A stretch of 64,000 bases of DNA from Chloroflexota bacterium. Lineage in GTDB: Bacteria; Chloroflexota; Anaerolineae; Anaerolineales; Anaerolineaceae. Below the pieces are notes generated by a model. It was given only the letters and a program-made list of their open reading frames with translations. It had not been told where the DNA came from and did no database searches. The stretch covers positions 82,811 to 146,810 of the forward strand of contig JAMCRR010000197.1 in NCBI GenBank assembly GCA_023381565.1, given 5' to 3'. Of this stretch, positions 664 to 41,711 are shown piece after piece (position 1 is the stretch's first letter; each line of letters opens with the position of its first letter). Made by a program: the position numbers and the translations under genes.

Positions 664-1389
664 TTAGAGAGTTACCTGATCCGGCACCCGGAAGACCTCA
701 TTCCGCTTGCGGACCTCATCCGTAACATTGAAATTGAAGTCGGCGCCAATCATCTGGCGGGTGAAGTTTTTCAGGGATGTGTTCCAATGCCTCTTGGTGA
801 CATAGTAGACGCGGGCGCCCCCGAGTTCGTGCTGGTATTCAGGCCATGGGTAAGTAGGTTGGGCCATTTCAAGACCGGCCATTCTCCAGCCATTGTAGCT
901 CTCAAATGTAGACCACCACTCCTTGCAACCCAGGGTCTCGAGGGCGTAGAAGCTCTTCGCATAATACATGGCGTAGCCAATGCGTCCGCCACGGGCGAAG
1001 GTCATCGTGTGCAGGCTAATGGCAATGTCTTCATTCATCACGCGGCCGTTAGCGAACCCGGCCAGCATTCCATCGAATAAGCCGATCAGGGTGAAGGGAT
1101 CTTTGACGCGTTTGCGCTGCCATCCCAATATTTCGGCATACACGCGAGCACCGACGATGTCATAGAAATCGTGATCGCAATCCATCACCTTCTTCATGTA
1201 CTCTAGTAGCAACGGGACGTCGTCCAGTCGGGCTTCGCGAATGTACAACACCCGCCCATCCTTGAGGGTGATCATCGCTTCGGGCCATGGTTTCAAATCC
1301 ATCGGCGGAGCTTGAAGCAAAGGTTCGATTTCACGTACATCCAGGGTGATCTGTTCTTGCGATACTTTTTCTGGGGGATCTAGTTTCAT
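664..1389 (-). CDS. GNAT-like protein of unknown function, copy A
   Basis: A 241-residue soluble protein. The central part (about residues 45-160) starts with DGRVLYIREARLDD and ends with a RGGRIG turn, which resembles the first strand and the acyl-CoA loop of GNAT acetyltransferases. This assignment is by eye only. The C-terminal third contains ESYNGW and YPWPEYQHELGGARVYY, which I do not recognise from any named family. A close paralogue of identical length lies at 24785-25510, and the first 30 residues of the two are nearly the same. The two copies bracket the Mo-hydroxylase/cyclase island, one on each strand. The start has an AGGAG-type site (gctccttttgg complement is less ideal). The substrate is unknown. 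Confidence 0.7.
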   Translation of the reverse strand: MKLDPPEKVSQEQITLDVREIEPLLQAPPMDLKPWPEAMITLKDGRVLYIREARLDDVPLLLEYMKKVMDCDHDFYDIVGARVYAEILGWQRKRVKDPFTLIGLFDGMLAGFANGRVMNEDIAISLHTMTFARGGRIGYAMYYAKSFYALETLGCKEWWSTFESYNGWRMAGLEMAQPTYPWPEYQHELGGARVYYVTKRHWNTSLKNFTRQMIGADFNFNVTDEVRKRNEVFRVPDQVTL

Positions 1390-2016: not shown

Positions 2017-3744
2017 TTGGCAAGTATCAAAGTTGAAATCCGATCTGGCGCGTATTATGATTCGGCATTCCTGATGCAACTGCAGCGATCGCTGGCTACC
2101 CTCCCCGGTGTCCAGGATGCAGGGGTGATCATGGGAACAGAAGCCAACAAGGAGCTGCTCGCGCACATCGATCTGCTCCCGGCAGAAGCGGAGTCAGCCA
2201 AACCGGATGATCTCATTATTGTCGTGCGCGCTGAGACTGAGACGGGGGCGATTGAAGCGCTCTCCAAAGTGGATGAGCTGATCAACAGGCGCAAATCCAC
2301 CAGCAGCCAGGAACACCGCCCGCAGAGCCTGGAGACCGCCGTCCAGGAGCTCCCGGAGGCGGAATGGGTTCTCGTCTCGGTCGCCGGACGCTACGCGGCC
2401 GGGGTAACCCGCCAGGCGCTGCGGCTGAATAAGCACGTCTTCCTATTCAGCGATAATGTTTCCGTTGATGAAGAGATAGAGCTCAAACAAATCTCTTCAG
2501 AAAAAGGATTGCTGGTGATGGGACCCGATTGCGGCACAGCCATCATCCGCGGGGTTGGCCTGGGCTTTGCCAATAAAGTGCGCCTGGGTCCGATTGGGGT
2601 GGTGGCGGCAGCCGGCACCGGCTTGCAGCAGGTGACCTCCCACATCCATCAACTCGGCAGCGGGATTACCTACGGCATCGGTACGGGCGGACGCGATCTT
2701 TCTGAGAAGGTCGGAGCGGTGACCTTCTTGCAGGGGATCGATGTGCTGAGCAGGGATCCTGAAACGCGCGTCATCGTGCTGGTTTCCAAGCCACCGGCGC
2801 CAAAAGTCGCCGAGAAGGTCCTCGAGGTTGCCCGGCGCGCGGGCAAACCGGTGGTGGTGAACTTCATCGGGCGCACGCCTGCCGCGCGCCAGGTGGACAA
2901 TCTGACCTTTGCCGGCAGTCTGGACGATGCGGCGGAGCAGGCAGTGAAAATTGCCAACCAGGGGACGCCGGTCGCTGAGGAATCAAAAGTCAAGATTGAC
3001 CGCTTCGCTCCAGGCCAGCGTTATCTGCGCGGGCTGTTTTCTGGCGGCACACTGGCTTATGAAGCGCAGTTCATCCTGCAAGATTACCTGCCGCGTGTGT
3101 TCGCCAATGCCCCATTGAATAAAGAGAACCGCCTGCCAAACTCGCTGGTTAGCCAGGAGCATACCATTGTTGACCTGGGTGAAGACGAGTTCACCGTCGG
3201 ACGGCTGCATCCTATGATGGATAACGAGCTACGCATCCGCAGGCTGCTGGAGGAAGCTGCCGATCCACAGGTGGCGGTGATTATGCTGGACGTGGTGCTG
3301 GGATATGGCTCCCATCCAGATCCGGCGGGTGAGCTTGGCCCGGCAATTGCGAAGGCGCGAAAGTTGGCTGAAGCAGCCGGCCGCTACCTGGAAGTGGTGG
3401 CGGTGGTTACCGGCACAGATGAAGACCCGCAAACCCTCGACCATCAGATCGAGCAATTGAAAGCTGCCGGGGCCTGGGTGCATCCCAGCAATGAAACCGT
3501 GGTGCGCTACGCCGGCAGGATCCTTCAGGCGCTCAACCAGCCCAAAGAGCAACCAGAAGCAGCAGCCACAACACCGGTTGCGTTGGCCACGTTGCAGGGC
3601 ACGTTGATCGCGATCAACGTTGGATTGGAGTCCTTTGCGGAAAACCTGACTGCCCAGGGAACTCCGGTCATCCAGGTAGATTGGCGGCCTCCAGCCGGAG
3701 GGAATGAACGGTTGATGTCCATTCTGGAGAAGATGAAGAAGTAA
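2017..3744 (+). CDS. fdrA: FdrA/AllF, acyl-CoA synthetase-like subunit of an oxamate carbamoyltransferase-type enzyme
   Basis: A 575-residue protein of the FdrA family (E. coli FdrA is about 555). FdrA resembles succinyl-CoA synthetase. Here the Rossmann-like part has GPDCGTAII (about residue 169) and a GVVAAAGTGLQQV loop (about 194-206), followed by a C-terminal ligase-like half with SGGTLAYEAQ. In E. coli, FdrA works with YlbE and YlbF (AllF, AllG, AllH) in the carbamoyl transfer step that links oxalurate or oxamate to carbamoyl phosphate. The start is TTG, with AGGAGG five bases upstream. AllG follows in the operon and AllH is at 14904-15872 on the other strand. The real substrate here is not fixed by the sequence. 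Confidence 0.9.
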   Translation: MASIKVEIRSGAYYDSAFLMQLQRSLATLPGVQDAGVIMGTEANKELLAHIDLLPAEAESAKPDDLIIVVRAETETGAIEALSKVDELINRRKSTSSQEHRPQSLETAVQELPEAEWVLVSVAGRYAAGVTRQALRLNKHVFLFSDNVSVDEEIELKQISSEKGLLVMGPDCGTAIIRGVGLGFANKVRLGPIGVVAAAGTGLQQVTSHIHQLGSGITYGIGTGGRDLSEKVGAVTFLQGIDVLSRDPETRVIVLVSKPPAPKVAEKVLEVARRAGKPVVVNFIGRTPAARQVDNLTFAGSLDDAAEQAVKIANQGTPVAEESKVKIDRFAPGQRYLRGLFSGGTLAYEAQFILQDYLPRVFANAPLNKENRLPNSLVSQEHTIVDLGEDEFTVGRLHPMMDNELRIRRLLEEAADPQVAVIMLDVVLGYGSHPDPAGELGPAIAKARKLAEAAGRYLEVVAVVTGTDEDPQTLDHQIEQLKAAGAWVHPSNETVVRYAGRILQALNQPKEQPEAAATTPVALATLQGTLIAINVGLESFAENLTAQGTPVIQVDWRPPAGGNERLMSILEKMKK

Positions 3745-3807: not shown

Positions 3808-5052
3808 ATGGTCGATATTGAACAGGCAAATGCCAAAGCTGTGGAACGGATGATGGAAGCGCGTCCGGTTTTGGTGGGCGTGGCAAAAGCGATCGAGGTA
3901 ATCCCGGGAATGCACCCCAATTTGCTCTTGCATGCGGGACCCCCGGTCACCTGGGACCGCATGGCGGGGCCGGTTAAAGGCGCAGTATTTGGAGCTTTGA
4001 TCTTCGAAGGCAAGGCAAAAAATGCTGAAGAGGCTGAAGCTCTGGTGCAGGCTGGGAAAGTGGAATTCGCTCCCTGCCACCACCACGACGCAGTCGGCCC
4101 AATGGCGGGTGTCATCTCACCCTCGATGATGGTGTACATTGTCGAGAATAAAACCCACGGGAACAGGGCGTATTCAGGCCTTAACGAAGGGCGCGGCAAA
4201 GTCCTGCGCATGGGCGCCTACAGCCCCGAAGTCATTGCCAAAATGCAGTGGATGAATGAGGTGCTCGGTCCTGTGCTGGATTCAGCCATTAAAGAGGGCG
4301 ATGGGGTCGACATCCGCACGCTCCTGGCGAAAGCTCTACATATGGGCGACGACGGCCACAACCGTCTGGATGCGGCGTCATTGCAGTATACCAATATCCT
4401 GGCTCCCAACATCGTGCGCGTGACCAAAGAAAAGAATACCGCCGCTGAGATCATCCGATTCCTGGGAGATAACGCCCTGAGCATTTTGAACCCGGTGATG
4501 GCGGGTTGCAAGACCATGACCTTAGCCGGGCACAATGTCGAAGGGTCGACCATTGTGACGGTGATGGCCCGTAATGGGACGGATTTCGGCATCCGTGTCA
4601 GTGGGTTAGGTGATCAATGGTTCACCGGTCCCGCAGGACACGTCAAGGCTCTGTATTTTCCCGGTTTTACAGACAAAGATGCCAACCCCGACATCGGCGA
4701 CAGCACGATCACCGAGACGGCCGGTATCGGCGGGTTTGCCATGGCTGCCGCTCCGGCGATCGTTACCTTTATCAGTGGAACGCCGAAGGATGCCATCAAT
4801 ACTACCCTGGATATGTATGAGATCACTTTTGCAGAGCATAAATACTTCACTATTCCTCAGCTCGACTTCCGCGGTACCCCGACGGGGATCGATATCCGCA
4901 AAGTGGTCGAGAAGGGCATGCTGCCCAGGGTGAATACAGGCGTCGCCCATAAAGACCCAGGCATCGGCCAGGTCGGCGCGGGCGTAGTGACCCCACCGAT
5001 GAATATCTTTGAAGATGCTCTGGTTGCCTTTGCAGAAAAATACGGTTTCTAA
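3808..5052 (+). CDS. allG: DUF1116 protein AllG (YlbE), carbamoyltransferase subunit
   Basis: A 414-residue DUF1116 protein; E. coli YlbE is of similar length. It contains PCHHHDAVGPMAGV (about residues 91-104), HMGDDGHNR (about 182-190) and a late run of Gly-rich loops, with no transmembrane segments. The family almost always occurs with FdrA and DUF2877 and forms the oxamate carbamoyltransferase complex AllFGH. Its gene follows fdrA after a terminator-like hairpin, with GGAGG eight bases before the ATG. The protein is intact. It is the second subunit of the complex inferred for this island. Confidence 0.88.
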   Translation: MVDIEQANAKAVERMMEARPVLVGVAKAIEVIPGMHPNLLLHAGPPVTWDRMAGPVKGAVFGALIFEGKAKNAEEAEALVQAGKVEFAPCHHHDAVGPMAGVISPSMMVYIVENKTHGNRAYSGLNEGRGKVLRMGAYSPEVIAKMQWMNEVLGPVLDSAIKEGDGVDIRTLLAKALHMGDDGHNRLDAASLQYTNILAPNIVRVTKEKNTAAEIIRFLGDNALSILNPVMAGCKTMTLAGHNVEGSTIVTVMARNGTDFGIRVSGLGDQWFTGPAGHVKALYFPGFTDKDANPDIGDSTITETAGIGGFAMAAAPAIVTFISGTPKDAINTTLDMYEITFAEHKYFTIPQLDFRGTPTGIDIRKVVEKGMLPRVNTGVAHKDPGIGQVGAGVVTPPMNIFEDALVAFAEKYGF

Positions 5053-5082: not shown

Positions 5083-6756
5083 ATGAAACGGGACGAATTT
5101 ATCAATATGATGGCTAATGCCAAGGCGTTCGATTTGACTCAGGGGTGCAGCATTTTCACTCCACCCTGGCCGGGAGAGAAATCGTTGGAGGTACATTTCT
5201 TCAAACGCCTGACAGGCGCATATGGGGGCGGCGCAGGAGCGAATGGTCAGATCTTAAATTGGAGCAATACGGTGGGTACGCACCTGGTGGGCGAGCGCGC
5301 CTTCCATTCGGCGGGACGTGCTATCGCGGATATCCCCTTGAAGGCGCTGAGTGGGCCCGGTGTGGTAGTCGACATTTCGGATGAGGTATCCGATTACAGC
5401 CTTTATACGCCTGAAATGATCATGGCTAAAGCCAACGTCAAGAAAGGCGATATCCTGATCATCAATACCGGTTACCATCGTTATTCTTGGGATCGACCCG
5501 ATACCCTGAACCCAAATGCCCAGGGTGGGGTTGAATCAAAAGAGTTCGGATTTTACGTCCGCCATCCAGGCCCTTCCCCCGAGTTCTTCCAATGGGCGTT
5601 GGATATGCAGTTTAAAGTGGTCGGCGTGGACTGCGGGTGCGCTGAGCATCCCATGAACACCCCGATCCGGCGCATGCACGAAAACCACTTCCAAAAAGCG
5701 GAAGAGAAGCTCAAGAAAGAGTACGGTAAAACCTGGGATGAGATGTTCCCGCAAGATGAATATTACACCATGACGCACATCACGCTGCCGAAAGCCCACC
5801 TGGTCTTTGCCGAAGCGCTTGTGGGTGATATCGATAAGCTCAGCAACCAGCGTGCCTGGATCACCATCCAACCGATCCCCTTCATGGAAGTCGAAGCGGC
5901 CTGGGCGCGGGTTGTGGCTTACCAGGCTCCGAAAGGGATGTCCGAGGATGAGTTCTTCAAGGAGATGGAAGCCTGCGAGATGCTGGACATGACCGTGCCT
6001 TTCAGCGTACAGAACCCGCAGTGGGCCAACTACGTGCCGCTGACCGTGACCTATACCAAGCGAGTTGGCGGGCAACATTTTGGGATGGGGCGCAACGGCT
6101 CGATCTGCAACGCCAGTATCCACCTGGGAACCCATATGGATGGGGAGAAGCACTTCTACCCCACCGGCGGGCGAACTATCGGCCAGGTACCCCTTGAAGA
6201 ATGGGTTGGCCCAGGCGTGGTGGCCGATATCTCTGAGCTTGTCAGCAATTCGAGCGTATATACGCCAAAGATGATCATGGATGTCGTCGATGTCCATGAA
6301 GGCGACATCCTGATTATCAAAATCGGATGGTCAAAATATGGATGGAACAGCCCAGACTCCGATGAATTCCGCTATATGATCAAGCACCCGGGTCCCTCTC
6401 CGGACTTTGGACAATGGTGTGTCGATATGAAGATTAAATGGATCGGGATCGACGCCGTCTCTGCTGACCACCCCATGAACACCATCCAGCGTATCTGGCA
6501 CCCCAAGACCTTCGCCGAAGCTAATGCTAAATTGAAGAGAGATTTCGGTAAAGAGTGGGATGAGATGTACCCATACGATCAATATTATCAGGACATGCAT
6601 TTTAACCTGTTCCCAAAAAGGATTGTCCATGCCGAAAACCTGGGTGGGCAGATTGCCGATATGCCCAGCGGACGGTACTACATCGGGTGCTTTGTCCAGA
6701 AAGCCATGGAAGCCGAGTCCATGTGGGGCCGCTTCGTGGCCTTTAAAGAAGGATAG
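5083..6756 (+). CDS. Tandem cyclase-family (kynurenine formamidase-like) protein, N-terminal half degenerate
   Basis: A 557-residue protein built of two consecutive cyclase domains (PF04199 type), about residues 1-285 and 290-557; ordinary members have one domain of 210-310 residues. The family hydrolyses amide or lactam bonds with a metal site built on HxGTHxDxPxHF; kynurenine formamidase and isatin hydrolase are known examples. The second domain has the set intact (H347, H351, D353, H357). In the first domain the aligned positions are T63, H67, V69 and A73, so three of four ligands are lost. The first half is therefore probably structural or regulatory. GGAGG precedes the ATG. The single-domain homologue is at 23871-24752. 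A likely role is opening of a cyclic amide made by the neighbouring Mo hydroxylase (inference). Confidence 0.85.
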   Translation: MKRDEFINMMANAKAFDLTQGCSIFTPPWPGEKSLEVHFFKRLTGAYGGGAGANGQILNWSNTVGTHLVGERAFHSAGRAIADIPLKALSGPGVVVDISDEVSDYSLYTPEMIMAKANVKKGDILIINTGYHRYSWDRPDTLNPNAQGGVESKEFGFYVRHPGPSPEFFQWALDMQFKVVGVDCGCAEHPMNTPIRRMHENHFQKAEEKLKKEYGKTWDEMFPQDEYYTMTHITLPKAHLVFAEALVGDIDKLSNQRAWITIQPIPFMEVEAAWARVVAYQAPKGMSEDEFFKEMEACEMLDMTVPFSVQNPQWANYVPLTVTYTKRVGGQHFGMGRNGSICNASIHLGTHMDGEKHFYPTGGRTIGQVPLEEWVGPGVVADISELVSNSSVYTPKMIMDVVDVHEGDILIIKIGWSKYGWNSPDSDEFRYMIKHPGPSPDFGQWCVDMKIKWIGIDAVSADHPMNTIQRIWHPKTFAEANAKLKRDFGKEWDEMYPYDQYYQDMHFNLFPKRIVHAENLGGQIADMPSGRYYIGCFVQKAMEAESMWGRFVAFKEG

Positions 6757-14903: not shown

Positions 14904-15872
14904 TCAAGTAGCCGCTTCACCAAGGGTAATTGCGGGCCAGGATTGGCTTGCACCGATAATTAATGACATCCCCAGGAGCGCATCTGCGCCGGAAGAATTG
15001 CCCCAGGAGCATAATCCCTCCACGCAGCGCTCCACGGCCGGGTGGCCGGAAATTATTGCATCCATCGCCGCGATCAGGCGTTCGTCAGCCTGCCCGGCAG
15101 CGGCGCACTCGATCAAGTTGGCGCTCAGCGTGGTAGTTATTGCATAGGCGGCGTCGATCAAAGAGCGGGTAAACGCTTCGGATTGGGAGGCTTCGATGTG
15201 ACTTCGAAAACTGGAGAGTGCCAGCATAACACCTATAATGAAGTCGTCGCCGGAAGGGGTCAATCCGATTCCCAGTCCCAGGAATTTCTCACAGGCGCGT
15301 TCCAATCCTGAGTGCAGCCCACTCCGGGCTGCATTCATGCATTCTTCGAGCAAGCCCGGCAGGCCGGGATAATCAGGAGAAGCATATGAGATGCCCGGTG
15401 ATTCTTGCCGACGAGAAGTATAGCGGATCAGCCCAGCGCCATTTTTCCTTTCCCGGACGGCTGTGATGACGGCATTCAGGCGTGCGGCGATATCTTCAAA
15501 TGGCTCTCCGTTATAAAGGGTTGGTTTTGCCTGCCAGACCCGCGCCTCCATTGTGGAGATTGTTGGATTCGGCGCTGGAAATCTCAAGCGTCCAGCGTGA
15601 ATACTCACAGGATCGCCAGCCTCGATCTGAGTCAGGCGCCCGGCTCGGGGATCAATATTGATTGTAAGTGGCCCACGGAAAGGCTCGTAGGATAGGAAGA
15701 TCATCCGGTTAGGAGGCAGGTGAACAAAAATACCGCGCGAAATGACCCCTCTCACCTCGCCCAGGCAGGCTAATTTCAGCAGTGACCTGGCAGCCGACCC
15801 GATGCTGTAGGCGGATAGCTGCGACGCAGGTGGATCCGTCTGGAGAGGCGGAATGTCAGACATCCTGACCAA
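14904..15872 (-). CDS. allH: DUF2877 protein AllH (YlbF), carbamoyltransferase subunit
   Basis: About 322 residues with the family's hallmark GLGIGLTPSGDDFIIGV (about residues 205-221). DUF2877 proteins are the third partner of FdrA and DUF1116 in the AllFGH oxamate carbamoyltransferase. Here the gene is separated from fdrA-allG by 10 kb and lies on the opposite strand, which is unusual for this trio. Two starts are possible, TTG 15872 or ATG 15863; neither has a strong ribosome binding site. The protein has no transmembrane segment or signal peptide and is full length. Confidence 0.87.
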   Translation of the reverse strand: MVRMSDIPPLQTDPPASQLSAYSIGSAARSLLKLACLGEVRGVISRGIFVHLPPNRMIFLSYEPFRGPLTINIDPRAGRLTQIEAGDPVSIHAGRLRFPAPNPTISTMEARVWQAKPTLYNGEPFEDIAARLNAVITAVRERKNGAGLIRYTSRRQESPGISYASPDYPGLPGLLEECMNAARSGLHSGLERACEKFLGLGIGLTPSGDDFIIGVMLALSSFRSHIEASQSEAFTRSLIDAAYAITTTLSANLIECAAAGQADERLIAAMDAIISGHPAVERCVEGLCSWGNSSGADALLGMSLIIGASQSWPAITLGEAAT

Positions 15873-20201: not shown

Positions 20202-21809
20202 ATGGAATTAACGGAAAACAATCAACCCAAGTCTGAGGAAGTGGAGGGAGTTCAGATCGATCCTCATCAAGCAATGATCGACGAGCTCAAAGAAAAACGC
20301 TCTCAGGCTTCCCAGGGAGGGGGCAAAGCACGCATTGACGCTCAGCGCGCTAAGGGCAAACAAACGGCGCGGGAACGCGTTTACAAACTCCTCGACGAAG
20401 GGTCTTTCCAGGAAGTCGACGCGCTCATGTCTCACCGCCACACCGATTTTGGCATGGATCAGCAGCGCTTCCTTGGGGATGGTGTGGTGACCGGCTTTGG
20501 CAAGATCAACGGACGCCGCGTATGCGTCTATGCCCAGGATTTCACCATCCTGGGAGGGACGTTTTCGGAGGTAGCCGGGCAAAAAGTCAGCAAGCTCATG
20601 GACCTGGCTATGGAAGCCGGAGTACCGGTGATTGCCCTCAATGACAGCGGTGGTGCTCGCATCCAGGAAGGTGTCCATTCGTTGGATGCCTATGGACAGC
20701 TTTTCTGGCGCAACACGCAGGCCAGTGGAGTGATTCCCCAGCTCAGTGTGATCATGGGGCCCTGCGCAGGGGGAGCGGTGTATTCTCCAGGACTGACCGA
20801 TTTCATCTTTATGTCTGCTCAAACGAGTAATATGTTCATCACCGGGCCTGAGGTGATCAAAACCGTGACCGGCGAAACGGTCGACTTTGAAACACTGGGC
20901 GGGGCCTCGGCGCACAGCGCGACCAGTGGCGTAGCTCACTTCGTAGGCAGCAGTGAGGACCACACGCTCGAGCTGGTGAGGACTTTAATCGGTTACTTGC
21001 CCTCGAACAACGCCGAACCGGCGCCTGCGATCGTGCCTGAAGATGACCCCAATCGCAAGGATGCTTTGCTTAACCGCATCGTGCCCGCTGACCCCAATGA
21101 GCCTTACGATATGAAGGAAGTCATCATCCGGATAGTCGATACGGGCAGCTTCTTCGAGGTGCATGAAAATTTTGCCCGCAATGCCTTGGTCGGGTTCGCC
21201 CGGCTGCACGGCCAGGTGGTGGGCATTGTTGCCCAGCAGCCCATGTACCTGGCAGGGTGTATCGACATAGACGCCTCGGATAAGATGGCCCGCTTCGTGC
21301 GCTTCTGCGATGCCTTCAATATCCCCCTGGTCACATTTGTCGATTCTCCAGGATTCTTACCCGGTGTGGTGCAGGAGCACGGCGGGATCATCCGGCACGG
21401 TGCAAAGATCGTCTACGCATACTCGGAAGCCACCGTTCCAATGGTCTCGATCGTTACCCGCAAGGGCTATGGGGGCGCCTACCTGGTGATGGGCAGCAAG
21501 AGCATCCACGCTGACCTGGCTTTTGCCTGGCCAACGGCCGAAATTGCCGTTATGGGTGCAGACGGCGCGGTCAACATCCTGTATCGTAAGCAGATTCAGG
21601 AAAAAGAAAATGCAGCCGAAGAAAGAAAACGCCTGATCAAAGAATTCCGGGAGAAATTCTCCAATCCTTACCAGGCGGCGAAATTCGGGTTTGTCGATGA
21701 AGTTCTGATCCCCGAAGAAACCCGGCCGAGGCTCATCGGCGCGTTGGAACTGCTGCGAGATAAGCATCACACTCGCTTTCCCAGGAAGCATGGTACCATG
21801 CCGTTATGA
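20202..21809 (+). CDS. mmdA: Carboxyltransferase subunit of a Na+-pumping biotin decarboxylase (MmdA/PccB family)
   Basis: 535 residues. The two crotonase-like halves have HTDFGMDQ, INDSGGARIQEG, MGPCAGGAVYSP and FITGPEVIKTVTGE in the first, and VDSPGFLPGVVQEHGGIIRHGAK and RKGYGGAYLVMGSK in the second. This matches MmdA of methylmalonyl-CoA decarboxylase and PccB, and is shorter than glutaconyl-CoA decarboxylase alpha. It moves CO2 from an acyl-CoA to biotin. The three genes that follow complete a Na+-pump complex, so decarboxylation with Na+ export is favoured over ATP-driven carboxylation; no biotin carboxylase gene is present. The substrate could be methylmalonyl-CoA or malonyl-CoA. Confidence 0.9.
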   Translation: MELTENNQPKSEEVEGVQIDPHQAMIDELKEKRSQASQGGGKARIDAQRAKGKQTARERVYKLLDEGSFQEVDALMSHRHTDFGMDQQRFLGDGVVTGFGKINGRRVCVYAQDFTILGGTFSEVAGQKVSKLMDLAMEAGVPVIALNDSGGARIQEGVHSLDAYGQLFWRNTQASGVIPQLSVIMGPCAGGAVYSPGLTDFIFMSAQTSNMFITGPEVIKTVTGETVDFETLGGASAHSATSGVAHFVGSSEDHTLELVRTLIGYLPSNNAEPAPAIVPEDDPNRKDALLNRIVPADPNEPYDMKEVIIRIVDTGSFFEVHENFARNALVGFARLHGQVVGIVAQQPMYLAGCIDIDASDKMARFVRFCDAFNIPLVTFVDSPGFLPGVVQEHGGIIRHGAKIVYAYSEATVPMVSIVTRKGYGGAYLVMGSKSIHADLAFAWPTAEIAVMGADGAVNILYRKQIQEKENAAEERKRLIKEFREKFSNPYQAAKFGFVDEVLIPEETRPRLIGALELLRDKHHTRFPRKHGTMPL

Positions 21810-21840
21810 GCTCGGCAACGTATAAGATGGAGGTGGACAC

Positions 21841-22194
21841 TTGAGTGAATTCACGCAAGGTTTGATGGTGAGCCTGTGGGGATTGGCGTCGACTTTTATC
21901 GCCATTGGCTTGCTGGTTGTGGTCATCATCTTGATCGACAAAGCTTTTCCGGAAAAGGCTGAAGAAGAGAAAGAAGAAGTCCCGGAACTTTCTACCAGCA
22001 TCCTTTGTGAGACCGAGCCGCCGGTATCAGAAGCTGAGATCGCCGCGGTGATTGCAGCCGCGATCTACGCATTAAGGGAAACAGAACCGGTATCCGCTGA
22101 CCTGGGCCGGGCATTGGAAGCCGGCCACGGACCCTGGTGGGCGATGCACCAGACGTCTAACGCGACCCATCAATTGAGGAGATCTGAGAAGTGA
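21841..22194 (+). CDS. mmdD: Na+-pump decarboxylase small membrane subunit (OadG/MmdD family)
   Basis: 117 residues from a TTG start with GGAGGTGG seven bases upstream. One N-terminal transmembrane helix (about residues 10-33) is followed by a Glu/Lys-rich stretch and a soluble C-terminus with PPVSEAEIAAVIAAAIYAL, the usual OadG/MmdD layout. This subunit anchors the carboxyltransferase to the membrane beta subunit. The last four bases overlap the next gene, so translation is coupled. Confidence 0.85.
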   Translation: MSEFTQGLMVSLWGLASTFIAIGLLVVVIILIDKAFPEKAEEEKEEVPELSTSILCETEPPVSEAEIAAVIAAAIYALRETEPVSADLGRALEAGHGPWWAMHQTSNATHQLRRSEK

Positions 22195-22679
22195 ATATAC
22201 AAATCAATAAGCCAATCAAGATCGTAATCAATGGGAAGACTTATGAGGTTGAGGTCGATGAAGCTGGCGACACCACTATGACGGTCTGCGTCAATGGAGA
22301 ATATTTCACTGTGGAACTCGAAGAAGAGTTCCGCCTGGCAAGCCAGCCAAAACCCCTGCCTGCAGCGGCTGAGCCGAAAACGCCACCGGCGCCGCCAAAG
22401 CCTGCACCAGTTACCCAACCCGTGCGTCCGGTTCAGACGCCAACCCCGGCTGCCGGACCCGGACAGGGGTTTCAGATCAAGGCGCCTATGCCTGGCACAA
22501 TCCTGGACATTAACGTCAAGGTCGGTGAAACGGTACAGGTCGGTAAGCAGCTTTGCGCGCTAGAAGCCATGAAGATGAAAAACGCCATCCGGGCGCCCAA
22601 AGAGGGAGTCGTCGCCAGCGTGAACGTGAACGAAGGGCAGACGGTTGCCTACGGGATGCTGTTGTTCATCCTGGAGTGA
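22191..22679 (+). CDS. mmdC: Biotin carboxyl carrier subunit of the Na+-pump decarboxylase
   Basis: 162 residues from GTG 22191, overlapping the stop of the previous gene. An N-terminal basic/acidic segment (1-55) leads into a Pro/Ala-rich flexible linker (about 58-92), then a biotinyl domain (about 93-162). The biotin-acceptor lysine is K128 in LEAMKMKNAI. It shuttles carboxyl-biotin between the carboxyltransferase and the membrane pump. The layout matches MmdC and GcdC rather than the short acetyl-CoA carboxylase carrier. Confidence 0.93.
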   Translation: MNIQINKPIKIVINGKTYEVEVDEAGDTTMTVCVNGEYFTVELEEEFRLASQPKPLPAAAEPKTPPAPPKPAPVTQPVRPVQTPTPAAGPGQGFQIKAPMPGTILDINVKVGETVQVGKQLCALEAMKMKNAIRAPKEGVVASVNVNEGQTVAYGMLLFILE

Positions 22680-22686
22680 GGCATTC

Positions 22687-23808
22687 ATGACAAATTATCT
22701 GCAACTCCTCTTACAAGGTCCTCTTCATTTCGATTGGCGGATGGCTATCATGATGGTGATCGGGGGCGTCCTGATCTACCTCGCCATCGCTAAAGACTTC
22801 GAGCCGGTCTTGCTGCTGCCCATTGGCTTTGGGGCGATCCTCACCAATCTCCCTCTGACCGGTATCACTGATGCGGGTGGGCTGCTCGGGATCCTTTACA
22901 ATGCTGGCATCCAGACCGAGCTATTCCCGTTGCTGATTTTCATCGGTATCGGGGCCATGACCGACTTTGGACCGCTACTTGAAAACCCGCGCATGGCCTT
23001 TCTGGGGGCAGCCGGTCAGTTCGGGATTTTCGCCACGCTCCTGCTGGCATTGATGGTTGGTTTTCGGCTGAATGAGGCTGCTTCGATCGGGATAATCGGA
23101 GCGATCGATGGGCCTACAGCGATCTATGTTTCCTCAAAACTGGCGCCCCATTTGCTCGGTCCGATTGCGGTCACGGCTTACAGCTATATGTCGCTGGTAC
23201 CGATCATTCAACCGCCGGTGATGCGCCTTCTGACCAACCAGAAAGAACGGCTTGTACGCATGCCGTATTCGGAGCGCAAAGTATCCCGCACAACCCGCAT
23301 CGTCTTCCCCATTGTCGTCACGATCATCATTTCATTCCTCTCTCCGAAAGCGTCGCCGTTGATCGCCTCTCTGATGTTTGGCAACTTGCTGCGTGAATCG
23401 CTGGCTGTGGAACGCTTGAGCAAAGCAGCACAGAATGAGATCGCCAATGTGACGACGGTTTTCTTGGGATTGACCATCGGTTCCACCATGACCGGAGCGA
23501 CCTTTATCCAACCTACCACACTCCTCATCCTGGCAATGGGACTGCTGGCATTTATTTTCGATACTGCGGGTGGCGTGCTATTGGGCAAGTTATTCTATTG
23601 GCTATCCAATAAGAAGTTCAACCCCTTAATCGGGGCAGCAGGCATCAGCGCATTCCCAATGTCTGCCCGCATCGTCCAACGCTTTGCCGCGAAGTATGAT
23701 TTCGAGAACTTTCTATTAATGCACGCGATGGGCGCCAACGCTGCCGGGCAGTTAGGCAGCGTGGTTGCCGGCGGGATAGTCCTGGCTATTTTGGCGGGAT
23801 CCTTCTGA
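22687..23808 (+). CDS. mmdB: Na+-transporting decarboxylase beta subunit (OadB/MmdB/GcdB)
   Basis: 373 residues from ATG 22687, with GGAGTGAGG close upstream; an earlier in-frame start at 22645 lies inside the carrier gene. It has about ten hydrophobic segments and the family's conserved stretches LLLPIGFGAILTNLP, GAIDGPTAIYVSSKLAP (with the Na+-linked Asp) and TAYSYMSLVPIIQPP. This subunit decarboxylates carboxybiotin and exports Na+. With the three genes before it, the complex is complete. An Na+ gradient made this way can drive ATP synthesis or the NCS2 permease. Confidence 0.94.
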   Translation: MTNYLQLLLQGPLHFDWRMAIMMVIGGVLIYLAIAKDFEPVLLLPIGFGAILTNLPLTGITDAGGLLGILYNAGIQTELFPLLIFIGIGAMTDFGPLLENPRMAFLGAAGQFGIFATLLLALMVGFRLNEAASIGIIGAIDGPTAIYVSSKLAPHLLGPIAVTAYSYMSLVPIIQPPVMRLLTNQKERLVRMPYSERKVSRTTRIVFPIVVTIIISFLSPKASPLIASLMFGNLLRESLAVERLSKAAQNEIANVTTVFLGLTIGSTMTGATFIQPTTLLILAMGLLAFIFDTAGGVLLGKLFYWLSNKKFNPLIGAAGISAFPMSARIVQRFAAKYDFENFLLMHAMGANAAGQLGSVVAGGIVLAILAGSF

Positions 23809-23870: not shown

Positions 23871-24752
23871 ATGAAACTGATCGATCTGACTATTCCTTTG
23901 GGCGTTGGCACGCCTCCCTGGCCTACTTATGAGCCCCTGCAGCTTAAATACTTCAAGCGTCTGTCTTCTAATGGCGCAAACGGGCAGGTTTTGACGCATT
24001 CCAACCACCTGGGCACCCACCTGGATGGCGAAATCCACTTCCATACCCCTGGCAAAGACATCGCTCAACTGGAGTTGGATTACCTGGTGAACGAGGGCGC
24101 TATCGTCGATTTGAGCGATTGCGTGGGTGATTACGACGTGTACACCAGCAAAATGATCGAGGATAAAGTTGAGGTTCACGAGGGCGATATTCTCATCCTG
24201 CATACCGGGTATCACCACTTCGGCTGGGATATGCCCACAGCCAATGAAGTACGTTACATGGTGCAGCACCCTGGACCTGATCGTGAAATGGCTGAGTGGA
24301 TGAAGAAAAAGAAGATCAAATGGTTTGGGGTCGACTGCGGCAGTGCAGATCACCCCATGAACACGATCGTGCGCGACTGGGCTCCGCGCCAGGCACGCAT
24401 CGCCGATAAGGTCTTCCGCAAGAAATTTGGCAAGCCGATGGCTGAGGTCTTCGACGATACCAAATATCAGCTGATGCATCTGGAAATGTTCCCGTATGGG
24501 ATCATTCATGCCGAATGCATCGGCGGTGAGATTGATCTTCTCTTGAATAAGCGGTTAAAAATCGGTTTCTTCCCCTGGCGCTTCGTCGATGGCGAGTCCT
24601 GCATCGGCAGGTGTGTGGCGATGGTGGAGGATGACGAGTACGAAGAGCTAATGCAGAAGAAGGCTACCATGCCCAAGACGAAGTTCGGAGATGCCTTCAA
24701 CCCCAAGCACGTCGAGATCATCAACCAGCATACAGCAGAAAACCTGGCCTGA
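23871..24752 (+). CDS. Cyclase-family (kynurenine formamidase/isatin hydrolase-like) metal-dependent hydrolase
   Basis: 293 residues from ATG 23871, with AAGGAG seven bases upstream; the longer reading from 23817 lacks a ribosome site. It is a single-domain relative of both halves of the 557-residue protein at 5083-6756. The metal motif HLGTHLDGEIHF is intact (H46, H50, D52, H56). Further shared motifs are HTGYHHFGWD and VDCGSADHPMNT. It probably hydrolyses an amide or lactam bond in the cytoplasm. The position after the decarboxylase genes and before the GNAT-like paralogue repeats the cyclase/GNAT pairing seen at the left end of the island. Confidence 0.88.
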   Translation: MKLIDLTIPLGVGTPPWPTYEPLQLKYFKRLSSNGANGQVLTHSNHLGTHLDGEIHFHTPGKDIAQLELDYLVNEGAIVDLSDCVGDYDVYTSKMIEDKVEVHEGDILILHTGYHHFGWDMPTANEVRYMVQHPGPDREMAEWMKKKKIKWFGVDCGSADHPMNTIVRDWAPRQARIADKVFRKKFGKPMAEVFDDTKYQLMHLEMFPYGIIHAECIGGEIDLLLNKRLKIGFFPWRFVDGESCIGRCVAMVEDDEYEELMQKKATMPKTKFGDAFNPKHVEIINQHTAENLA

Positions 24753-24784: not shown

Positions 24785-25510
24785 ATGTACCTCGAACCGC
24801 CTGAAAAGGTATCTCAAGAACAGATTACCCTGGATGTCCGGGAAATCGAGCCGCTGCTCCAGGCGCCTCCTATGGATGTTCCGGCCTGGCCGGGAGCCAT
24901 GATTACCTTGAAAGATGGCCGCAAAATGTATATCCGGGAGGCTAAGCTTAGCGAAGCCCCCATGATGATGGAATACATGAAGAAGGTCATGGAGAGCGAC
25001 CACGATTTCTACGACGTGGTAGGGGCGCGGGTGTATGCTGAGATCGTGGGCTGGTACCGAAAACGCCTCAAAGATCCCTATGTGTTGCTGGGCTTGATCG
25101 ACGGTTTATGGGTAGGTTTCGCCAACGGGCGCCTGCAGAACGCCGATATCAACATCAGCCTGCACACCATGGCGTTGGCGCGCGGTGGGCGCATTGGCGC
25201 GGTGATGTACTACGCCAAAGCCTATTACGGGTTCGAAATCCTGGGCAACAAAGAGTGGTGGGCCACCTATGAGAGTTATAATGGCTGGCACCGCTGGGGC
25301 CTGGGAATGGCCCAACCGAGCTACCCGTGGCCTGAGTACCAGCACGAGCTGGGCGGCGCCCGGGTGTATTATGTGACCAAGAAATACTGGGATACGACGG
25401 TGAAGCAATACGTGCGCCAGATGGTCGGCGCCGACCTCGTTTTCGATGTGCCGGATGAGATCATCAAAGCGAATGAAGTAATGCACCCTCCGGAGGAAGT
25501 CCTGGTATAA
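24785..25510 (+). CDS. GNAT-like protein of unknown function, copy B
   Basis: 241 residues, the same length as the protein at 664-1389 and very similar along its whole length; the stretch EKVSQEQITLDVREIEPLLQ near the start is identical. The central DGRKMYIREAKL and RGGRIG elements again suggest a GNAT-like fold, by eye only. It follows the cyclase gene after 32 bases with GAGGAG upstream, so the two are probably cotranscribed. A role with the cyclase product, for example acyl transfer or ligand sensing, is possible but unproven. Confidence 0.75.
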   Translation: MYLEPPEKVSQEQITLDVREIEPLLQAPPMDVPAWPGAMITLKDGRKMYIREAKLSEAPMMMEYMKKVMESDHDFYDVVGARVYAEIVGWYRKRLKDPYVLLGLIDGLWVGFANGRLQNADINISLHTMALARGGRIGAVMYYAKAYYGFEILGNKEWWATYESYNGWHRWGLGMAQPSYPWPEYQHELGGARVYYVTKKYWDTTVKQYVRQMVGADLVFDVPDEIIKANEVMHPPEEVLV

Positions 25511-34466: not shown

Positions 34467-35849
34467 ATGTCTACTCTCCTTGTTCGTCATGCTGCTCTGC
34501 TGGTTACAATGGATGACCAGCGTCGAGAAATTCCAGACGGGGGATTGTACGTACAAGACGGTTTCATTGAAAATATTGGAAAAACAGAAGACTTACCCAA
34601 GTCTGCGGATACAATTCTGGATCTGGACGGTCATATCCTCCTCCCCGGGTTAATCAACACCCACCACCATTTTTACCAGACCCTTACGCGCGCCGTCCCT
34701 GCAGCACAGGACGCGAATTTATTTCACTGGCTGAAAACGCTCTACCCCATTTGGGCGCGCATGACTCCTGAAGACATCTATATTTCCACGCAAACTGCCC
34801 TGGCAGAGCTGGCGCTATCGGGGTGCACTACCGCATCAGATCACCTCTACCTGTTCCCGAACGGCTCCCGGTTAGACGATGAGATCGAAGCTGCTCGCCA
34901 GGTTGGTTTGCGGCTGCACGCCTCGCGCGGTTCGATGAGCCTGGGTGAGAGCCAGGGTGGGTTACCCCCCGATACTGTCGTCGATACTCCCGAGCAGATA
35001 CTGCGTGACAGCCAACGCTTGATCGAGCAATACCACGATTCGCAACCCGGCGCAATGACCCGTATTGTGCTGGCGCCTTGCTCACCATTCAGCGTTACCG
35101 GGGACCTGATGCGAGAGAGCGCTAAAATGGCTCGCCATTATGGGGTGCATTTGCACACCCATCTGGCTGAGACTAAGGACGAAGAAGTATTTTGCCTCGA
35201 GAAATTTGGAAAACGTCCGGTCGCCTACATGCAGTCTTTAGACTGGGTAGGGCCGGACGTTTGGTTTGCCCACTCTGTTCACGTCAACAACGACGAGATT
35301 GGGGTGTATGCCCAGACCGGCTGCGGTGTGGCGCACTGCCCCAGCTCGAATATGCGCCTGGCTTCGGGAATTGCTCCCCTGTGGGAGTGGCAGAGAGCCG
35401 GGGTGCGTGTAGGGCTGGGAGTCGACGGTTCGGCCAGCAACGACAGCTCGCATATGCTGGCTGAGGCGCGCCAGGCTTTGCTTCTGGCGCGTATCCGGGC
35501 CGGATTGTTGGGCGCCTCGCTGTCTGCAGAAGGAGCGCCTCCGCTTCTTAGCGCCCGCCAGGCGCTGGAGTTGGCCACTCGGGGTGGAGCTTCTGTCCTG
35601 GGCCGCCAGGATATTGGCGTCCTTGCGAACGGGAAGTGCGCAGACTTCATTGCCATCAACTTGAATCACCTGGGGTTGGCCGGCGCATTGGCTGACCCTC
35701 TGGCTGCGCTGGTGTTCTGCGAGCCTCAGACTGTAGATTTCAACGTTGTGCAGGGGAAATTCGTTGTCAGGGATGGAGAACTCTGCACCATCGACGTTCC
35801 TCGCCTGGTCGAAAAACACAACCAGGCCTCAATGCGGCTCTTATCCTAA
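34467..35849 (+). CDS. 8-Oxoguanine deaminase (TRZ/ATZ amidohydrolase family)
   Basis: 460 residues. The metal motif NTHHHFYQTLTRAVPAAQDAN (about residues 65-80, shortened here) and SGCTTASDHLYLFP are the signatures that separate 8-oxoguanine deaminases from guanine deaminases and atrazine hydrolases. Further motifs are ASRGSMSLGESQGGLPPD, HLHTHLAETKDE, HCPSSNMRLASG and GLGVDGSASNDSSHML. The enzyme converts 8-oxoguanine to urate and ammonia using one divalent metal. It starts the deaminase/carbamoyl cluster and sits 88 bases before adenine deaminase. The start lacks a clear ribosome site. Confidence 0.9.
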   Translation: MSTLLVRHAALLVTMDDQRREIPDGGLYVQDGFIENIGKTEDLPKSADTILDLDGHILLPGLINTHHHFYQTLTRAVPAAQDANLFHWLKTLYPIWARMTPEDIYISTQTALAELALSGCTTASDHLYLFPNGSRLDDEIEAARQVGLRLHASRGSMSLGESQGGLPPDTVVDTPEQILRDSQRLIEQYHDSQPGAMTRIVLAPCSPFSVTGDLMRESAKMARHYGVHLHTHLAETKDEEVFCLEKFGKRPVAYMQSLDWVGPDVWFAHSVHVNNDEIGVYAQTGCGVAHCPSSNMRLASGIAPLWEWQRAGVRVGLGVDGSASNDSSHMLAEARQALLLARIRAGLLGASLSAEGAPPLLSARQALELATRGGASVLGRQDIGVLANGKCADFIAINLNHLGLAGALADPLAALVFCEPQTVDFNVVQGKFVVRDGELCTIDVPRLVEKHNQASMRLLS

Positions 35850-35937
35850 TCTGTGTTTGTTTCGGGTGCTTTCCCCTCAGGGTTGATTACGCTGAGGATG
35901 AATTGCCGTGGAAGGATTTTCAAGAAAGGAGACGTGA

Positions 35938-37776
35938 TTGGCTAATAAACATTCTGCAGGTTATCAACATCAGCGGAAGAACCTGTATGAAGTCACGCAG
36001 GACGTTGTTGCTACGGCCATGGGTAGGGAACCCGCCGATCTCCTCATTCGCAGCGGACGCCTGGTGAACGTGAACGTCGGCCGCATCCAGGATGGCGTAA
36101 GCGTGGCGATCCGTCATGGGATTATCGCCTACGTCGGCAGCAGCGATCACATCCAGATTGGCAAGCATACGAGGGTGGTCGACGCCGGTGGCCGCTTTCT
36201 TGCGCCCGGATTTATCGATACCCACGACCACGTAGAGAGCAGCATGGTGGACGTGCGCAGTTTTGCGGCAGGGGTGCTGCCTCACGGAACGACGACCATC
36301 GCCTGCGATAACCACGAGATTACGAACGTATTTGGGCTGCGGGCGGTCGAGTTATTTCACAAGGCGGCAGAAGGGCTGCCCTTGAAGGTGCTGGTGGCCA
36401 TGCCGGTGTGCGTTCCCTCGATACCGGGGTTTGAAGACACGGGAGCGAGGATCACGGCTTCAGAAACGACAGAAGCCTACCGCCAGGGTTGGGCTCAGCT
36501 GCAGGGCGAACAAATGAATTTCCCGGGGGTGATCTACGGCGACCCCGATGTGCACGCTATCACCGCCTCTTCGTTAAAAGCCGGAGTCGTATTGACAGGT
36601 CATTATGCCAGCCTGGAGCTGGACAAAGGGCTGCCCGCCTTCATTGCTTCTGGCGTGACCGCCTGTCATGAGGCGACCACCGCCGAAGCGGTCATGCGAC
36701 GCGCAGAACTGGGCTGCTACGCACAGCAGCGTTATGGCACCGCCTGGCTGGATATGCCCAATACCATCCGCGCCATCACCGAAAACCCGGGCCTGGACAC
36801 GCGATTTTTCACACTGGTCACGGATGACGTGACCCCGGCGACCATTGCCGAGCAAGGCCATATGAGCCGGGTAGTACGCGATGCGATTGCGCAGGGAGTC
36901 TCCCCGATCCAGGCGATCCAGATGGTGACGATCAATGCAGCTCAGCTCCTGGAGAAGTCGCGCTGGATTGGCACGATCTCACCCGGCCGCGCTGCCGATA
37001 TTTTAATAATTAGTGATCTGGTGAATGTGAAAATTGACCAGGTATTCGCAGACGGGGTATTGGTCGCCGAAAATGGGAAAATGGTCGTCCAGCTGAATGA
37101 TTATCGCTATCCAGAGTGGGCGCTGCACTCGGTCTTTGTGCCTCCACTTTCGGCTGCGGACTTCGCCATTCCCGCTGAAAAACCGGTCAAAGTGCGGGTC
37201 ATGCGGCTCTTTCCTGGAAAAGTGCACACCGTTGAGGAATTTCACGATCTTAAACCCAGCCATGGTCAGCTTCAAGCCGATCCTGCCCGCGACCTGGCAA
37301 AAGTCGCTGTGATTTATCGGCATGAGCCCCGCCCAGAGGTGAAAAAAACCAGGGAGTTGGGTTTTGTCACCGGGTTGAATTTCAAACCTGGTTCAGCTTA
37401 CGCCTCGACTGTATCGCACGACTGCCACAACCTGCTGGTAATTGGCACCAGCGATGAAGCGATGGCCAAAGCTGCAAATGAGCTGATTAAATCTGGCGGC
37501 GGGCTGTGCGTTGTCGTTGGAGGAAATGTTGAGGCCGTGCTGCCGCTGCCGCTGGGTGGGCTGATGTCGTTGGAATCGGTGGGTGTCGTTGCCGAGCAGG
37601 TGAATTCGATTGAGAAAGCACTCAAGAAGGCCGGATCTCCTGATAGTTCCATTGAAATGACGATGAGTCTGCTGGGTCTGATTGTGCTCGAAGAGCTGCA
37701 CATTTCCAACCAGGGTCTGGTAGAACTAAAACCCGGCCAAATGCCAAAATTTGTGGACCTGGTAGTCAACCATTAA
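35938..37776 (+). CDS. ade: Adenine deaminase
   Basis: 612 residues, similar to the usual 570-600. It deaminates adenine to hypoxanthine. The metal-binding segment reads GFIDTHDHVESSMV (about residues 94-107; most members have HVHIESS, so one residue differs). Later come CDNHEITNVFG, GHYASLELDKGLPAF, FFTLVTDDVTP and STVSHDCHNLLVIG. The start is TTG with AAAGGAGA about nine bases upstream. It is followed after four bases by a GntR regulator. With the Mo hydroxylase it would feed hypoxanthine into the xanthine/urate route. Confidence 0.94.
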   Translation: MANKHSAGYQHQRKNLYEVTQDVVATAMGREPADLLIRSGRLVNVNVGRIQDGVSVAIRHGIIAYVGSSDHIQIGKHTRVVDAGGRFLAPGFIDTHDHVESSMVDVRSFAAGVLPHGTTTIACDNHEITNVFGLRAVELFHKAAEGLPLKVLVAMPVCVPSIPGFEDTGARITASETTEAYRQGWAQLQGEQMNFPGVIYGDPDVHAITASSLKAGVVLTGHYASLELDKGLPAFIASGVTACHEATTAEAVMRRAELGCYAQQRYGTAWLDMPNTIRAITENPGLDTRFFTLVTDDVTPATIAEQGHMSRVVRDAIAQGVSPIQAIQMVTINAAQLLEKSRWIGTISPGRAADILIISDLVNVKIDQVFADGVLVAENGKMVVQLNDYRYPEWALHSVFVPPLSAADFAIPAEKPVKVRVMRLFPGKVHTVEEFHDLKPSHGQLQADPARDLAKVAVIYRHEPRPEVKKTRELGFVTGLNFKPGSAYASTVSHDCHNLLVIGTSDEAMAKAANELIKSGGGLCVVVGGNVEAVLPLPLGGLMSLESVGVVAEQVNSIEKALKKAGSPDSSIEMTMSLLGLIVLEELHISNQGLVELKPGQMPKFVDLVVNH

Positions 37777-37786
37777 AGGAATGATT

Positions 37787-38560
37787 ATGAGTGAGACAAT
37801 CCATCCCTTCCAGCGACTGACAAACATGCTGGCCGCGTTAATAGCAGAAACCCCGCCTGGCGAGAGGCTTCCATCCGAACCGGACCTGGCACGCAGTATG
37901 GGCGTCTCACGGGCTACTTTACGAGAGGCAATGCGTTCATTCGAGGGGCAGGGGCTTATTCGCAGGCGTCAGGGGGTCGGGACGTTTGTCGTCGGGCGCT
38001 CTCAGATCATTGAGAGTGGGCTGGAGGTTCTGGAAAGCATCGAAGCGCTGGCCAACAGAATCCAACTTGATGTGGCTATGGGCGCTTTGCACGTCACTCA
38101 GGTGAAAGCCGATGCTTTCCAGGCTGCACAGTTGAACTGCCAAAGCGGAGATCCGTTGATCGAAGTGTCGCGTGTGATCCTGGCGGATAACCGGCCGGTG
38201 GCTTATCTGGTGGATCTCCTGCCTGAAGATGTTTTGTCGCCAAGTGATTTATCCAATGGATTTACAGGCTCGGTCCTCGATTTGCTTCTCCAACGAGGAG
38301 AGCTCCAACTGGCGCAATCGCGCACAGAAATCCGGGCGGTTGCAGCCTCGGCAGAGCTGGCGAGAGCGCTGCAAATCCAAAGAAGCGATGTACTTCTGCT
38401 CTTCGTGGCTTTTCTATACACGACAGCCGGGAGGGTTGTTGATTATTCACTCAGCTACTTTTTGCCGGGTTACTTCCGCTTCCATGTCGTGCGGAGTGTC
38501 GGATTTGATGCCTCGATCCCCCGGGGCAGCCGAGCAAGAGAGGAGGAAATACAGGCATAG
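37787..38560 (+). CDS. GntR-family (HutC/UTRA) transcriptional regulator
   Basis: 257 residues from ATG 37787, with AAAGGA six bases upstream. The N-terminal winged helix has LPSEPDLARSMGVSRATLREAMRSFE (shortened here), GLIRRRQGVGTFV, the standard GntR pattern. The C-terminal UTRA domain (about 95-245) has PLIEVSRVILADNRPVAYLVDLLP and a VVDYSLSYFLPGYFRF end. UTRA domains bind small metabolites. Its position between adenine deaminase and the carbamoyltransferases suggests it controls this cluster in response to a purine-pathway intermediate. Confidence 0.93.
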   Translation: MSETIHPFQRLTNMLAALIAETPPGERLPSEPDLARSMGVSRATLREAMRSFEGQGLIRRRQGVGTFVVGRSQIIESGLEVLESIEALANRIQLDVAMGALHVTQVKADAFQAAQLNCQSGDPLIEVSRVILADNRPVAYLVDLLPEDVLSPSDLSNGFTGSVLDLLLQRGELQLAQSRTEIRAVAASAELARALQIQRSDVLLLFVAFLYTTAGRVVDYSLSYFLPGYFRFHVVRSVGFDASIPRGSRAREEEIQA

Positions 38561-38652
38561 GGATACGCAGTTGCACAAAACTACTGAATGAGCAGGTTGA
38601 GAATCTGCATATTCGAACCATTAAAACATATTTAACCAGGAGGTAATAAACC

Positions 38653-39603: not shown

Positions 39604-39627
39604 TCATAGCCAATGGACAATAAATAG

Positions 39628-39656
39628 TGGACGGTGAGCGGTTGACGGTATATAAT
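39628..39656 (+). promoter_or_regulatory. Promoter between the two carbamoyltransferase genes
   Basis: TGGACG (39628-39633) and TATAAT (39651-39656) have an exact 17-base spacing. The region 39604-39748 has no gene and contains short repeated words (GGACGG, TTGACGG, GTGACGG; GATCACT twice). The YgeW-like gene can therefore be transcribed separately. Confidence 0.55.
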
Positions 39657-40757: not shown

Positions 40758-41711
40758 ATGGCAAAAAAAGTTGCAGTTGTTGCGATTGGCGGCAATTCAT
40801 TGATCAAGGATAAGAATCACCAATCGGTGGAGGACCAATATCTAGCCGCCAAGGAGACCACCCATCACATTGCCGATATGATCGAAGCCGGCTGGGATGT
40901 AGCGATTGGGCACGGAAACGGGCCCCAGGTGGGTTTCATCCTACGCCGGTCTGAAATCGCCCACAAGGTCGAGGGGATGCACGAAATCCCGTTGGATGTG
41001 TGCGGCGCCGACAGCCAGGGCGCCATCGGCTACGCCTTGCAGCAGACGCTGCAGAACGAGCTGGTTAACCGTGGAATCGTAAAACCGGTTGCTACAGTCG
41101 TAACCCAGGTGTGTGTAGATAAAAACGACCAGGCGTTCCGAAATCCATCAAAACCGATCGGCGGTTTCATGGACGAAGGCGATGCCAAAACTCGAGCGCG
41201 CGATCTGGGATGGACGGTGGTGGAAGATGCCGGGCGGGGATGGCGACGGGTGGTTGCTTCACCCATCCCGACCGAAGTAGTCGAGCTTCCCTCGGTGAAG
41301 GCATTGATCGATGCCGGACATGTCGTCATCACCGTCGGCGGCGGAGGAATCCCCGTGATCGATAATGGCAACCACTGCTATGAAGGCACGGCAGCAGTTA
41401 TCGATAAGGATTATGCCAGCAGCCTGCTCGCCCGCCTCATCAAAGCCGACCTGTTCTTAATCTCGACGGCAGTGGAGAAAGTGGCGCTGAACTTTGGCAA
41501 ACCCAACCAGCAGTTGATCGACCGTATGACTCTGGCCGAAGCCAAGAAATATCTGGCCGAAGGGGTTCATTTTGCTAAAGGTTCCATGGCGCCCAAGATC
41601 CAGGCCATTATCTGGTTCCTGGAAGCCGGCGGTAAGCAAGCCATCATCACCAATCCCGAAAATATCGGCCGCGCTTTAGCCGGTGATACCGGTACCCTGA
41701 TTGTTCCATAA
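40758..41711 (+). CDS. arcC: Carbamate kinase
   Basis: 317 residues, the usual length. It has VVAIGGNSLI (residues about 6-15), GHGNGPQVGFI (about 53-63), VTQVCVDKNDQAF and GGGGIPV, with FAKGSMAPKIQA near the C-terminus, the set found in all carbamate kinases. It makes ATP from carbamoyl phosphate and ADP, releasing CO2 and ammonia. GAGGA precedes the ATG. Arginine deiminase is absent, so the source of carbamoyl phosphate is most likely the adjacent carbamoyltransferases or the AllFGH complex. Confidence 0.96.
   Translation: MAKKVAVVAIGGNSLIKDKNHQSVEDQYLAAKETTHHIADMIEAGWDVAIGHGNGPQVGFILRRSEIAHKVEGMHEIPLDVCGADSQGAIGYALQQTLQNELVNRGIVKPVATVVTQVCVDKNDQAFRNPSKPIGGFMDEGDAKTRARDLGWTVVEDAGRGWRRVVASPIPTEVVELPSVKALIDAGHVVITVGGGGIPVIDNGNHCYEGTAAVIDKDYASSLLARLIKADLFLISTAVEKVALNFGKPNQQLIDRMTLAEAKKYLAEGVHFAKGSMAPKIQAIIWFLEAGGKQAIITNPENIGRALAGDTGTLIVP

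Follow-up and report, generated by a model that had tools for sequence, protein, structure and literature searches.

A tandem cyclase-family protein of Anaerolineae with one intact and one degenerate metal site, encoded beside carbamoyltransferase genes

The tandem protein and its described relatives

The closest described relatives of the protein reported here are KynB, the bacterial kynurenine formamidase (PDB 4co9, 4cob, 4cog), in which two single domains of some 210 residues each form a homodimer, and isatin hydrolase (PDB 4j0n, 5nna, 5nmp), which consists of two identical active protomers. In KynB one Zn ion is bound by His50, His54 and Asp56, the second is held with the help of His161 and Glu173, and His60 is the proposed general base (PMC4243253; PMC6117287). 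The bridging Asp and His60 are conserved in all 336 sequences of the authors' survey, the enzyme is an obligate dimer in which 22-27% of the subunit surface is buried, and its pocket is lined by Val40 and Val42 of the partner subunit (PMC4243253). The pocket of isatin hydrolase is lined in the same manner by Trp59 and Trp61 of the partner (PMC6117287), and both pairs are located at positions -10 and -8 from the first metal His. Dihydrophloroglucinol cyclohydrolase and other ring-opening hydrolases of PF04199 (PMC10470551) have the family and the general ring-opening chemistry in common with the protein described below, but they are single-domain enzymes of a different pathway. The other relevant system is the recently identified E. 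coli AllFGH oxamate carbamoyltransferase, which converts oxalurate to carbamoyl phosphate and oxamate and of which no cyclase is described as a part (PMC11326118). Our literature search found no paper on tandem cyclases with a dead half and no paper linking AllG (DUF1116) with a cyclase.

In the window, by which we mean the whole 64,000-nucleotide stretch of Chloroflexota DNA that was analysed, an open reading frame of 557 codons with verified coordinates and strand encodes two cyclase domains in one chain:

5083..6756, forward strand: tandem cyclase protein of 557 aa with two PF04199 domains (open reading frame, Pfam, half-to-half alignment)
5083..5937, forward strand: residues 1-285, the first half, with complete cyclase fold and degenerate metal site (PF04199 88.1 bits; KynB 4cob_A Z 21.7 over 14-283)
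5938..6753, forward strand: residues 286-557, the second half, with intact metal site (PF04199 105.5 bits; isatin hydrolase 5nmp_G Z 23.6 over 284-556)
23871..24752, forward strand: single-domain cyclase P0002, motif intact, comparison protein (Pfam and genome profile search)

The Pfam search finds two Cyclase stretches in the protein, and in the six-frame genome search both halves score above the family cut-off of 23.1 bits. Aligned over 282 columns, the halves share 42% identity (E 1e-76), which bears out the fusion of two cyclase domains noticed in the sequence-only reading of this DNA; the second half is 43% identical to P0002. The AlphaFold2 model built from 95 aligned sequences (pLDDT 93.4, pTM 0.92) supersedes an earlier one from 13 sequences, which was poor near both metal sites (pLDDT 68.6). 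According to this model both halves are confidently predicted to retain the full fold, each with Z above 20: KynB matches both of them with Z above 21, and the first half also matches 8f9x_B (Z 22.0, residues 10-281). Against the arylformamidase model TIGR03035 the protein scores 47.8 bits, below the equivalog cut-off of 223.

Metal ligands and partner hairpins

We compared 52 complete tandem orthologues, all of them from Chloroflexota and nearly all from Anaerolineae (60-85% identity to the window protein per half), and 44 single-domain relatives. The sampling drew on 400 Chloroflexota genomes and on 396 from the class Anaerolineae, together with a scan of selected, named genomes (Anaerolineaceae, Anaerolineae and Chloroflexota); outside the phylum it covered plasmids alone. 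The elements that distinguish the two halves are the following:

5236..5250, forward strand: first-half hairpin G52-A53-N54-G55-Q56, expected in the second-half (live) pocket from the example of KynB and isatin hydrolase; all five residues 52/52
5269..5301, forward strand: degenerate metal motif T63-V-G-T-H67-L-V69-G-E-R-A73, counted across 52 tandems
5776..5778, forward strand: H232, retained first-half equivalent of KynB His161 (via H506, profile alignment); 52/52
5812..5814, forward strand: E244, retained first-half equivalent of KynB Glu173 (via E518, profile alignment); 52/52
6088..6102, forward strand: second-half hairpin G336-R337-N338-G339-S340, expected in the first-half pocket; R337 does not vary, whereas 339 and 340 do
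6121..6153, forward strand: intact metal motif H347-L-G-T-H351-M-D353-G-E-K-H357; ligands invariant in 52 tandems and 43 single-domain relatives
6598..6600, forward strand: H506, second-half site-II metal ligand by family-profile alignment with KynB; invariant in tandems and singles
6634..6636, forward strand: E518, second-half site-II metal ligand by the same alignment; invariant in tandems and singles

The second half carries the HxG[T/A]HxDxxxH motif known from isatin hydrolase and the binuclear ligand set of KynB, including the Glu. When the family profile is aligned with KynB by HMMER, H506 falls on the site-II His and E518 on the Glu, and the six residues H347, H351, D353, H357, H506 and E518 are each present in 52/52 second halves; they do not vary in the alignment of tandem and single proteins used for modelling, which includes 43 single-domain relatives. 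The GLQC/GLAS signature that isatin hydrolase has at the site of KynB Glu173 is absent, and HAEN is found at 516-519. The first half lacks the motif: across the 52 complete proteins position 63 is T29/N17/S6 and never His, position 69 is V50/M1/T1 and position 73 is A51/S1. A further loss concerns H516: this His is present in all second halves and singles, and at the equivalent first-half position, 242, the residue is L35/F17. None of the 52 complete proteins from the sampled phylum combines the fusion with an intact first half, so that the many family members with active first halves which would have spoken against the sequence-only reading did not turn up there. The pattern of losses is far above chance and is not drift.

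The residues singled out by the sequence-only reading (H347, H351, D353 and H357; T63, V69 and A73) were correct. Its description of the first half as metal-less goes too far, because H67 (site I) as well as H232 and E244 (non-bridging site II) are each 52/52. The half-to-half alignment together with the pairing of H506 and E518 places H232 and E244 at KynB His161 and Glu173; thus the first half is without equivalents of His50, Asp56 and His60 and keeps those of His54, His161 and Glu173. Since the bridging Asp and the base are missing, KynB-like catalysis in the first half is unlikely.

The two hairpins differ as well. Counted along the sequence, the -10 and -8 offsets of KynB and isatin hydrolase point to A53 and G55 in the first half and to R337 and G339 in the second. 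GANGQ is present in 52/52 first halves and is identical in 21/21 single-domain proteins of the P0002 clade. The second-half hairpin now shows the pattern R-N-x-[SA], with R337 and N338 in 52/52 proteins, N20/G16/T9/S4/E2/L1 at 339 and S24/A24/D2/E1/G1 at 340. If the two halves associate with each other in the manner of KynB subunits, it is the hairpin of the live pocket that is frozen as in the active singles and that of the dead pocket that is altered. The conservation pattern fits such an arrangement, in which, by analogy with the composite pocket of KynB, the hairpin of one half would line the pocket of the other, and two composite sites would then have diverged in a complementary way. What is new here is this asymmetry of the hairpins between a live and a degenerate pocket. 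The invariance of R337 calls for caution, as the first-half pocket may serve a new use.

Gene neighbourhood and possible reaction

The homologues of AllF, AllG and AllH and a carbamate kinase are all encoded in the window, as in the E. coli AllFGH system:

2017..3744, forward strand: AllF/FdrA homologue, carbamoyltransferase subunit (NF004760 574 bits, cut-off 433)
3808..5052, forward strand: AllG homologue, directly upstream of the tandem cyclase (PF06545 310 bits)
14904..15872, reverse strand: AllH homologue (PF11392 86.7 bits)
40758..41711, forward strand: carbamate kinase (TIGR00746 371.5 bits, cut-off 358)

The order AllF-AllG-tandem cyclase, with AllH elsewhere and on the other strand, is unlike that of the E. 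coli operon. Downstream of the tandem gene there are a molybdenum hydroxylase set, CoxG and an NCS2 permease; beyond AllH follow a second hydroxylase set, genes for a biotin-dependent carboxyltransferase, a biotin carrier and the beta subunit of a Na+-pumping decarboxylase (20202-23808), and then the single cyclase. The genes of 20202-23808 possibly serve malonyl- or methylmalonyl-CoA decarboxylation. AllF, AllG and the tandem sit together in most of the relatives examined. AllG was found in 53 of the 56 class genomes that bear the tandem; it is on the same contig in 42 of these, always within 4.5 kb and in 34 cases within 1 kb. A cyclase (E < 1e-20) occurs in 161/396 genomes, AllG in 155/396 and both in 142, a co-occurrence that treats the cyclase and AllG class searches as the same genome draw. 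In the two genomes L049 and L050, in which the search found no tandem, the orthologue of the single cyclase P0002 adjoins AllG-AllF.

An 8-oxoguanine deaminase, an adenine-deaminase-like gene, two carbamoyltransferases of aspartate and ornithine type, the carbamate kinase, ABC transporter genes and a hydantoinase are encoded at 34467-52764, and the deaminase, carbamoyltransferase, kinase and hydantoinase genes among them make the region a nucleobase-catabolism cluster. This gene run resembles parts of anaerobic uric acid clusters (PMC12507026). No tryptophan genes were found in the neighbourhood of the tandem cyclase. As AllG is a near neighbour in 42/42 testable genomes, we infer that ring opening or amide hydrolysis is linked to acyl-urea phosphorolysis; a cyclase-family hydrolase beside AllFGH could open a cyclic acyl-urea and so provide a substrate of this kind, or hydrolyse the amide product. 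Ureidomalonate is the malonyl analogue of oxalurate. Barbiturate to ureidomalonate is therefore an attractive candidate reaction, guessed from this resemblance and from the nearby biotin-dependent Na+ decarboxylase set. That set was seen in just one other cluster (L040/L041), and barbiturate is for this reason offered as a tentative guess which is more probably wrong than right. The conserved, uncharacterised link between a cyclase-family hydrolase and the AllFGH carbamoyltransferase points to an undescribed anaerobic nucleobase pathway.

Some further observations concern the surroundings of the cyclase genes. Two paralogous 241-aa proteins without a Pfam or NCBIfam match (664-1389, reverse strand; 24785-25510, forward strand) flank both cyclase loci and accompany them in relatives. 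On a plasmid of the haloarchaeon Halorussus halophilus (L153, 9001-15049) a single cyclase stands beside a BMP-family ABC transporter; in L038 and L042 the tandem is separated from the single cyclase by ABC transporter genes that include a similar lipoprotein.

Origin and role of the first half

In the maximum likelihood tree, which has 98 rows, all first halves cluster together. The second halves make up a sister cluster (support 100/98), although the program warns that long branches meet. Two proteins labelled as single, L114 and L115, fall within the second-half cluster; each is located at the end of a contig and appears to be a truncated tandem. One duplication and fusion is the simplest reading that fits this tree, in agreement with the earlier proposal of a duplication followed by conversion of one half, and multiple separate losses find no support in it. 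Purifying selection acts on both halves to a similar degree: the median omega is 0.15 for the first and 0.13 for the second (Nei-Gojobori, 517 pairs), and 71/271 columns of the first half and 80/258 of the second are invariant in the 52 tandems. Ongoing decay of the first half is ruled out by these values, and an assembly artefact or frameshift by the recurrence of the fusion in 52 complete proteins of many genomes. A loss of catalytic residues that is conserved in all 52 proteins and maintained under an omega of 0.15 marks the first half as a probable pseudoenzyme.

Considering all this, we favour, as probably correct, the reading of the tandem as an obligate pseudo-heterodimer with a non-catalytic but required first half and one live composite site, which would perform amide hydrolysis in series with AllF-AllG(-AllH). 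In the fold of kynurenine formamidase and isatin hydrolase each active site is composite, one subunit providing the metal ligands and its partner the hairpin; after a single duplication and fusion the two composite sites would have diverged in opposite directions. The site formed by H347, H351, D353, H357, H506 and E518 and by the first-half GANGQ hairpin would be the one kept active, and the site formed by the first-half ligands and the second-half hairpin the one abandoned for catalysis. Because the first half keeps the hairpin that completes the partner pocket in known relatives, the live site probably depends on it, regardless of any binding in the first-half pocket itself. The live site would most likely hydrolyse a cyclic or linear amide and either supply the acyl-urea of the adjacent carbamoyltransferase or remove its amide product, and carbamate kinase would then yield ATP. 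The contrast between lost ligands in all first halves and retained ones in all second halves, the frozen hairpin of the live pocket beside the altered one, the full fold of both halves, the similar selection on them, their single origin and the constant proximity of AllG speak for this reading. The invariance of H67, H232, E244 and R337 speaks against it, since it suggests that the first-half pocket was not merely abandoned; the long-branch warning on the sister grouping and the counting of the -10/-8 offsets by sequence are to be held against it as well.

One might argue that the first half is a structural dimerisation partner only, which contributes nothing to the live pocket and binds no ligand. 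Given the obligate dimer of KynB, a second half on its own could not do without a partner of some sort; yet the invariant GANGQ hairpin and the 71 fully invariant columns exceed the needs of a scaffold, and the divergence of the two hairpins is that expected where a single pocket is of importance. We consider this explanation improbable. It is just as improbable that the first half still holds a single metal ion, with H67, H232 and E244 as ligands, and has a different activity of its own: the three possible ligands are invariant and match His54, His161 and Glu173 of KynB, but essentially all members have lost the bridging Asp and the presumed base His60, both of which KynB keeps throughout the survey mentioned above (PMC4243253). 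The main rival to the obligate-partner reading is a regulatory pocket, in which the catalytic metal is gone, R337 supplies the positive charge and a bound anion, for example an acyl-urea or carbamoyl phosphate, would control the live site. The invariance of H67, H232, E244, E188, H189 and H161 in the first half and of R337 in the second goes beyond what a bare scaffold requires. However, these residues could be structural, and the variation at 63 (T/N/S), 29 (W/F/V/Y) and 339 is unexpected in a precise binding site; we regard such a pocket as unlikely. In an extended version, which appears quite unlikely, the dead half is a sensor: its pocket, with R337 from the live-half hairpin in place of the metal, would bind carbamoyl phosphate or the acyl-urea of the pathway and link ring opening to AllFG in an undescribed ATP-yielding nucleobase route (perhaps via barbiturate and ureidomalonate). 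The choice between scaffold and regulatory half left by the sequence-only reading is thus sharpened to an obligate partner that, by analogy, probably completes the live site via its kept hairpin, and its interpretation as a whole is partly supported.

The obligate-partner reading would make the tandem a natural case in which a symmetric homodimer with two composite sites turned into a single-site enzyme through complementary loss in its halves after fusion; a dimer that was once symmetric seems now to be a single, lopsided enzyme. Several apparent relatives proved to be of another kind. The tblastn matches on plasmids that span both halves are single stretches of about 760 bases, i.e. single-domain proteins, and an apparent relative of 560 aa (L112) is a long open frame running into one single cyclase. 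The neighbouring cyclase genes in L018, L019, L020 and L023 carry intact motifs in both members and were rejected as precursors of the fusion; these unfused pairs belong to another Chloroflexota family and possibly form heterodimers.
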